Source of the DNA: an uncultured Alphaproteobacteria bacterium
Lineage (GTDB): Bacteria; Pseudomonadota; Alphaproteobacteria; RF32; CAG-239
DNA length: 64,000 bases
Assembly: GCA_944393175.1 (NCBI GenBank)
Contig: CALXZH010000012.1
Span: forward strand, 1 to 64,000
Reading direction: 5' to 3'
Part shown: in pieces, positions 29,852 to 45,195 of the stretch
Position numbering within the stretch: the stretch's first letter is position 1
Layout: the number at the start of each line of letters is the position of its first letter
The notes under the pieces: generated by a model
Database searches by the model: none
Told to the model about the DNA's origin: nothing
What the model saw: only the letters and a program-made list of their open reading frames with translations
Position numbers and translations under genes: made by a program

Positions 29852-30121
29852 ATGTCGATTACTAATGAAAAAAAACAAGAATTAATTAAAGAATTTGGTT
29901 TAACCCCAGGTGATACCGGTTCTCCGGAAGTTCAAATCGCTATTTGGACATACAGAATCAATGCTTTGATTGAGCACTTCAATACTCATCAAAAAGATTT
30001 ACACTCTCGCTTGGGCTTGATGAAGATGGTTAGCCGTCGTCGTCACTTGTTGGATCACCTGAAATCTAAGAGCGAAAGCAGATATCAGGATTTGATTAAA
30101 AGATTAGACCTCCGTAAGTAG
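29852..30121 (+). CDS. rpsO: 30S ribosomal protein S15
   Basis: The 89-residue protein has the S15 pattern: [39 protein letters not shown] and LLDHLK. It binds 16S rRNA and nucleates platform assembly. AAGGAT precedes the ATG at 29852; a TTG just before is discounted. It sits 20 bases after truB and upstream of pnp, the usual order. Confidence 0.97.
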
Positions 30122-30134
30122 GATTTTGTTGGAT

Positions 30135-30238
30135 GAGGCAATTAGAGAGTTTTTATCAGAGCTCAAAATTGTGTGCATTAATGTACAAGGCAATTTGTTT
30201 GAATGATAAAAATTGCTCTGTTTGCCTCGCCAAAATAA
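30135..30238 (+). promoter_or_regulatory. Long RNase III-type stem in the rpsO-pnp intergenic region
   Basis: GAGGCAA (30135-30141) pairs with TTGCCTC (30232-30238), AGAG with CTCT, and TTTTTATCA (30150-30158) with TGATAAAAA (30214-30222). The interior forms a further hairpin, TGTGC-ATTAAT-GTACA. The result is about 20 bp of stem with small internal loops. In E. coli the pnp leader forms a comparable stem cut by RNase III for PNPase autoregulation, so the same role is likely. Confidence 0.6.
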
Positions 30239-30310
30239 ATTCCGGCGTTTGGAGAAGTCAGCCTAATAAAGTAACCTTTGGGTTTGTTGTAGGTTGAGAA
30301 AAGTTTTTTG

Positions 30311-37753: not shown

Positions 37754-38230
37754 ATGCGTTTGGCACTGTTTCAACCGGATATTCCGCAAAATACGGGGAC
37801 ACTCTTGCGCTTGGGCGCTTGTTTGGATGTGGAGCTCGATATTATTGAGCCTTGTGGTTATATTTTTTCAGAAAAAACGCTGAAACGTGCCGGTATGGAT
37901 TATTTGCATTTGGTGAAATTCAGACGCCATAAATCTTGGGAGCATTTTTTGCAATATCGTGCCGAACATCCGGATGAATATGGGCGAATCGTGCTTTTGA
38001 CCACGCATGCCACGGAACCATATTATAATTTCAAATTTCAACCCAATGACATTATTTTAATGGGGCGCGAATCGGCCGGCGTTCCCGAAGAAGTACACCA
38101 CATCGCAGATGCACGTCTTCTTATTCCGATGAACGAGAAAGCACGCTCGATTAACGTTGCCGTATCGGCAGTGATGGTGGTGGGGGAGTGTTTGCGCCAA
38201 ACGGGTGGATTTCCCTCTGTGGCAAAATAA
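37754..38230 (+). CDS. trmL: tRNA (cytidine/uridine-34 2'-O)-methyltransferase TrmL
   Basis: The 158-residue SPOUT methyltransferase modifies the wobble base of leucine tRNAs. LFQPDIPQNTGTLLRLGAC at the N-terminus, the LMGRESAGVP loop and IPMNEKARSINVAVSAVMV are the TrmL signature and form the knotted SAM site. AGAGGAT precedes the ATG. The last codons (GFPSVAK and stop) lie inside a 50-bp segment that is repeated 126 bases downstream, so the natural C-terminus may have been altered by an element insertion. Confidence 0.93.
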   Translation: MRLALFQPDIPQNTGTLLRLGACLDVELDIIEPCGYIFSEKTLKRAGMDYLHLVKFRRHKSWEHFLQYRAEHPDEYGRIVLLTTHATEPYYNFKFQPNDIILMGRESAGVPEEVHHIADARLLIPMNEKARSINVAVSAVMVVGECLRQTGGFPSVAK

Positions 38231-38256
38231 GGCAGATTTCGCGTGTCAAAGAAATA
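38207..38256 (+). repeat. Direct repeat flanking a palindromic element, copy 1 (trmL end)
   Basis: This 50-bp segment recurs at 38333-38382 with 45 of 50 positions identical, offset 126. It includes the last codons and stop of trmL. Confidence 0.9.
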
Positions 38257-38313
38257 CTCATGTACTAATCGGGTACACTCCGTTTTCTTTGCACTAAAAT
38301 CTTATTCTTTTGC
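38222..38313 (+). repeat. Imperfect palindromic element downstream of trmL
   Basis: The core reads CTCATGTAC, seven bases, then GTACACTCCG. Flanking it, CAAAGAAA pairs with TTTCTTTG, and GCAAAA with TTTTGC at the outer ends. The core matches one inside truA (44902-44931) to the pattern CTCAYGTAC-N6/7-GTACRCTSCG. No open reading frame of note is present. Confidence 0.7.
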
Positions 38314-38332
38314 GCACATATGAAAATCCGGC

Positions 38333-38382
38333 GGATTTCTCTCTGTGGCAAAATAAGGCAGATTTCATAGGTCAAAGAAATA
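38333..38382 (+). repeat. Direct repeat flanking a palindromic element, copy 2
   Basis: This is the downstream copy of the 50-bp repeat, 45/50 identical to 38207-38256. The 56 bases from here to thyA are AT-rich with no clear signal beyond a T-rich stretch. Confidence 0.9.
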
Positions 38383-44244: not shown

Positions 44245-45195
44245 TTAATACATCACTTTAGTTAAATATAAACCGCAAGCTGGAGCGTTGACGCCGGCGG
44301 CAGAACGTTTTTTGGCTTCTAATATGCGTTTAATGTCCTCAGGTTCAAGGTGATCATCGCCAACCATTTTTAGGGTGCCGACCATATTGCGAACCTGATG
44401 ATGTAAAAACGAGCGAGCCTCGACAATAAAGTGAATTTCTTCTCCACAGACTTCAATATCTAATTTATCCAAAGTCTTTATCGGGGATTTGGCTTGACAA
44501 GCTGCAGCGCGAAAAGAGCTGAAGTCGTGATGTCCGATGAGGTATTTGGCGCCTTGGCGCATTTTTTCAACATCTAAGGGCACAGGAACCCACCATACAC
44601 GGTTTTTTTCTAAAATTGCCGGAGCACGGCGGTTGAGAATCCGATACAAATAGCCTCGCCCTTTGGCACTAAAACGCGCGTGAAAATCAAGCCCTACTTT
44701 TTCAACATTTTTGACGCTGACAGGGGCATCCATATCGCGTAGGCGTGCGTTCATGGCCTCGCGCAATTTCCAATCAACCAAGTCTTCTTTTAGGTCAAAA
44801 TGTGCGACCTGAGATGTGGCATGGACTCCTGCGTCAGTTCTTCCTGCCCCGAAAACAACGATTTTATTGGGCTTCTGGAGGCGTTCTCCGGTGCTCGCGT
44901 CCTCACGTACGTCATTGTACGCTGCGGGGCTGCGCTCCGTGGAAGCACCACCATAAGCCTCACTAAAATCGTTGTTGGCTAAATTTGAATTGGGCTTCTG
45001 GAGGCGTTCTCCGGTGCTCGCGTCCTCAAACTCTTCATCTTCTTCCTCTTCTGGGACTTCGTTGTTTATTGCTGTGTCCGGGGTAAAGCAGCTTAAGGCT
45101 CTTTGCAGGTAGTCCTGCACCGAAGGACCGTCGAGTTGTTCTTGCCAACCAAGGAGGTTCGTGCCGTCATATTCGATTGTGATTTTGTAGCGCAT
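44245..45195 (-). CDS. truA: tRNA pseudouridine(38-40) synthase TruA with an in-frame repeat insertion
   Basis: The 316-residue enzyme has the TruA N-terminus YKITIEYDGTNLLGWQEQ, the catalytic loop GAGRTDAGVHA with the catalytic Asp at residue 121 (Asp60 in E. coli), and the C-terminal SFLHHQVRNMVGTL. The extra ~60 residues, about 44-110, are an acidic stretch and two copies of EDASTGERLQKPN separated by an AYGGASTERSPAAYNDVR segment. They are encoded by a palindromic element with 39-bp direct repeats. The insertion directly precedes the catalytic loop yet keeps the frame. Whether the enzyme remains active is not known. Confidence 0.92.
   Translation of the reverse strand: MRYKITIEYDGTNLLGWQEQLDGPSVQDYLQRALSCFTPDTAINNEVPEEEEDEEFEDASTGERLQKPNSNLANNDFSEAYGGASTERSPAAYNDVREDASTGERLQKPNKIVVFGAGRTDAGVHATSQVAHFDLKEDLVDWKLREAMNARLRDMDAPVSVKNVEKVGLDFHARFSAKGRGYLYRILNRRAPAILEKNRVWWVPVPLDVEKMRQGAKYLIGHHDFSSFRAAACQAKSPIKTLDKLDIEVCGEEIHFIVEARSFLHHQVRNMVGTLKMVGDDHLEPEDIKRILEAKKRSAAGVNAPACGLYLTKVMY
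44867..44905 (+). repeat. 39-bp direct repeat in truA, copy A
   Basis: This is identical over 39 bases to 44990-45028, offset 123 (41 codons). It encodes EDASTGERLQKPN on the minus strand. Confidence 0.95.
44890..44950 (+). repeat. Palindromic element inside truA
   Basis: The outer arms are GGTGCT (44890-44895) and AGCACC (44945-44950), and the inner arms CGTAC and GTACG surround six bases. The core CTCACGTAC-N6-GTACGCTGCG matches the element downstream of trmL. It is read in frame by truA, reminiscent of Rickettsia palindromic elements. Confidence 0.75.
44990..45028 (+). repeat. 39-bp direct repeat in truA, copy B
   Basis: This is the second identical 39-bp copy, flanking the palindromic element. 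Confidence 0.95.

Follow-up and report, generated by a model that had tools for sequence, protein, structure and literature searches.

The palindromes at the end of trmL and within truA are, with a probability of roughly three in four (0.77), copies of one dispersed, non-autonomous hairpin element of about 130 bp. Model comparison would place this element in one superfamily with RPE1 and ERIC, and the direct repeats beside it would have arisen after insertion, through tandem re-duplication of the hairpin unit, either whole or as the 5′ arm alone. Slippage or recombination between arms may then shrink the array again to a lone arm, and the element probably spread by means of a trans-acting enzyme working on the folded strand. 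ERIC, from gut bacteria, and RPE1, from Rickettsia, have a long history of study as distinct repeats.

In the window, that is, the whole stretch of 64,000 nucleotides that was analysed, the core CTCAYGTAC-N6/7-GTACRCTSCG occurs exactly twice, both times on the + strand, and it was not matched in 100 dinucleotide shuffles of the window. The original prediction of one palindromic core pattern at both loci is thus borne out, as are the 50-bp direct repeats at trmL with their period of 126 and the period of 123 at truA, where the two 40-bp repeats are identical (Table 1). The first repeat at trmL also supplies the end of the gene, as had been proposed. The palindrome described there is only the tip of the element. 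Base pairing extends about 60 nt outward on either side, so that both elements form imperfect hairpins of about 130 nt. Folded as single-stranded DNA, they are far more stable than shuffled sequences, with z-scores of −5.1 to −7.3 (element 1, −5.1 and −6.2).

Table 1. Features of the window related to the hairpin element (bit scores and E-values from covariance models R1 and R2 or from TIGRFAM models)
Feature	Position	Strand	Evidence or remark
trmL	37754..38230	+	TIGR00185 match, under that model's cut-off; last codons and stop inside 5′ arm of element
Hairpin element 1, full length	38202..38337	+	R1 86.8 bits, E 1.5e-19; R2 45.9 bits
Direct repeat copy 1 (5′ arm of hairpin 1)	38207..38256	+	45/50 identity to copy 2, spacing 126
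Conserved apical core, element 1	38257..38282	+	core pattern match
3′ arm of hairpin 1, imperfectly complementary to 5′ arm	38283..38331	+	
Direct repeat copy 2 (lone second 5′ arm)	38333..38382	+	read as truncated tandem unit
truA with in-frame insertion, 316 aa	44245..45195	-	
Hairpin element 2, orientation opposite to truA	44850..44983	+	R1 63.9 bits, E 1.1e-13; R2 31.3 bits
Conserved apical core, element 2	44902..44926	+	core pattern match
truA element direct repeat copy 1 (arm)	44866..44905	+	40/40 identity to copy 2, spacing 123
truA element direct repeat copy 2	44989..45028	+	100% identical to copy 1
RPE1-like coding stretch TERSPAAYNDVREDASTGE within truA	44887..44943	-	TIGR01045 20.1 bits, E 4.5e-4, cut-off 30
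Possible decayed third copy	30113..30247	-	R1 17.2 bits, E 0.1; between listed ORFs (>=100 aa)

Copies from related genomes likewise pair far beyond the core. In an alignment of 36 copies from relatives, which excluded the window copies and their trmL and truA orthologues, 37 of the 45 predicted pairs show two-sided changes and 94.4% of cells are paired. Covariation reaches 0.613, against 0.213 in shuffled alignments and 0.115–0.143 in slid versions, over which the structure has an advantage, being derived from the alignment on which it is scored. The stems vary freely while pairing and the bulges are fixed: along with the GTAC/GTAC tip, the internal loop below that tip (TCA/GSAG) and other bulges recur throughout. 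Terminal inverted repeats, as expected of a MITE, are present, the outermost helix being paired in 92% of cells. When the ends of 100 copies were compared for a MITE-type target-site duplication, enrichment of TA was not clear. The A-rich ends that copies in close relatives usually have are missing from both window copies, a point against the favoured reading.

A covariance model built from this alignment (R1) recovers both window elements, although they were absent from it, and returns ten candidates at E<=1 and six at E<=0.001 in the 1.63-Mb genome, E-values for this and the second model below being rough owing to short calibration. Only the trmL and truA copies carry the exact core in that genome, and the exact core therefore undercounts the family. 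The core is not unique to these two loci, as 50 of 130 relatives have it and none has the reversed control pattern. R1 matches range from 1 to 83 per related genome, and one genome without an exact core has 52. The predicted mobile palindromic family is supported by these dispersed copies together with the differences between sister species described below, from which its mobility is inferred. Elsewhere in the window, a weak R1 match (30113–30247) resembles a copy, now decayed, of the kind found in a sister subtype.

That template switching at a quasi-palindrome made each palindrome on the spot, with no common element, is very improbable, since the loops and the tip are the same across unrelated loci and across unrelated genomes. 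What speaks for such an origin is that the outer stems at trmL and truA pair with apparently native codons of both genes. For a dispersed element, the same pairing hints, suggestively only, that arms could be rewritten to match their flank.

Several copies of the hairpin also occur in each of 16 genomes sampled from other groups, which span several phyla. A second model (R2), derived from 20 copies of gamma- and deltaproteobacteria and others, with ERIC left out, gives, for example, at least 150 matches in Chromobacterium, at least 150 in Scalindua, 96 in a Bacteroidales genome and 60 in Listeria. Scores of loci outside the clade are partly circular, because these loci were chosen by the exact core. 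Chance was considered as a source of exact-core loci across all bacteria and rejected, as most of them pair outside the core to an extent well beyond that of shuffled sequences.

One known repeat that appears to fall within the same superfamily is RPE1 (TIGR01045). Like the present element, it is a hairpin of similar length with the same internal loops, encoding an in-frame peptide with an AAY-DVREDAST core, and translation of the truA copy in frame gives an RPE1-like peptide, TERSPAAYNDVREDASTGE. RPE1-bearing loci of Rickettsiales are matched by R1 with E-values down to 1.9e-14, most of those passing the TIGR01045 cut-off scoring about 39–67 bits, and R2 matches RPE1 loci as well. The common hairpin is thus found at RPE1 loci. 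The two differ in that the present host is not a Rickettsia, the truA peptide scores below the curated cut-off of the RPE1 model, and the trmL copy sits at the end of its gene.

The second repeat is ERIC (also IRU or RU-1) of enterobacteria, an imperfect palindrome of 127 bp with a TCA/GAG loop. The published ERIC consensus also has the GCGTTG/AAGGC loop (PMC2759123) that is common to the gamma- and deltaproteobacterial and other copies. Its stem and tip sequences are different, and its termini, reported as 5′TA3′ (PMC2229807), are not seen in the window copies. By BLAST, the 127-bp ERIC consensus has no significant match in the window. In 50 kb of E. coli, R2 nevertheless finds exactly the two ERICs present, both confirmed by BLAST, at 21.3 and 20.0 bits, the next best match reaching 9.8. 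R1 also ranks these two first, but at near-background E-values of 0.28 and 0.45, so that the shared structure is detected by R2 and only marginally by R1. One hairpin superfamily thus appears to include both ERIC and RPE1 according to these models, the link to ERIC resting mainly on R2. Two reviews searched, from 2007 and 2024, treat ERIC and RPE as distinct elements (PMC2229807, PMC10969869). A search of the open-access literature for the core sequence returned no title on bacterial repeats among the matches listed.

To our knowledge, the mechanism by which ERIC and RPE spread is unsettled. A wider and tentative proposal, less likely than not, is that ERIC, RPE1 and this family all derive from one bacteria-wide class of hairpins, which an enzyme would move after recognising the shape of the folded strand and not the sequence of the stems, with arm-to-arm copying keeping the stems paired. 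If the three do form one structural class, the bulges would tell which features a partner enzyme has to recognise, and copy number could be set, as a genomic trait, against the enzyme content of each genome.

The placement of the copies relative to genes is strongly biased. With genes taken as open frames of at least 90 codons rather than annotated genes, a same-strand stop codon lies within −15 to +30 of the 5′ end of the element in 50 of 74 independent loci, and 48 of these 74 have the same-strand arrangement only, against none with the opposite only. On one reading, the top strand presents early stop codons in the arm and the other strand an open frame, so that one orientation would be tolerated where a gene ends and the opposite one inside a gene, as in truA. 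The sense-strand bias at stop codons (48:0), together with the strong covariation, would also suit a control element of 3′ UTRs or a conserved structured RNA that stays with each gene and does not move. This alternative is unlikely in view of the many dispersed copies, the in-frame copy lying within truA in the opposite orientation and the arrays that vary among sister genomes. At E<=1, Rfam has no family that matches either window locus, and in well-paired columns G-U cells are not in excess of A-C cells (44 versus 83), the latter being concentrated in a few columns. Along nearest-neighbour edges, two-sided Watson-Crick changes outnumber one-sided changes in the wider set (346 versus 187), but not among the closest copies (60 versus 75). 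Neither the excess of A-C over G-U nor these edge counts points to selection on a sense transcript, and copying between arms is a possible source of the paired stems.

The flanking repeats had been taken as part of the architecture of the mobile element, and as a general mark of insertion this does not hold: only 43 of 147 copies are followed downstream by a repeat of their 5′ arm (score >=18), mostly at a period of about 119–131, which is the length of one unit. Full tandem units also occur; separately, one genome carries a tandem array of a divergent hairpin (L370 and L371, G000:C33:9764-9991) with GTGTACAT...CGTACATAAGCG cores. The 50-bp and 40-bp repeats could instead be target-site duplications from each insertion, a reading that gains from their position directly flanking the cores and from the gene end contained in the first trmL repeat. 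The scarcity and unit-length periods of the repeats, the existence of full tandem units and the element-type sequence of the lone arm in sister species all argue against it, and it is improbable. The most fitting reading of the repeats is that a 5′ arm was re-duplicated, given these periods, the 43 of 147 copies and the lone arms kept by the sisters.

Empty trmL and truA sites had been expected in relatives, and sister species without the full element do exist, but one arm remains at each site. Two of them (G003 and G004) keep one arm at both trmL and truA with the remainder absent, and in two others (G000 and G006) each of these sites holds the full form. Such sites look contracted rather than never occupied, judging from the residual arm; no never-occupied orthologous site was found among the sister sites examined, and a site search for one G006 locus gave matches in G006 only. 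Four sister genomes also differ, at two more loci, in the subtypes and unit numbers that follow one insertion point. Growth and contraction of a tandem array accounts for this better than a target duplication does. At one locus (c) in G003 and G000 (L342 and L343), a hairpin of another subtype is split by about 130–150 bp of unrelated-looking sequence, perhaps a nested insertion. At two loci of G006 (L165 and L350, in C88 and C28), the stretches upstream of the element copy are 98% identical within the one genome, and the repeats extend further out than elsewhere.
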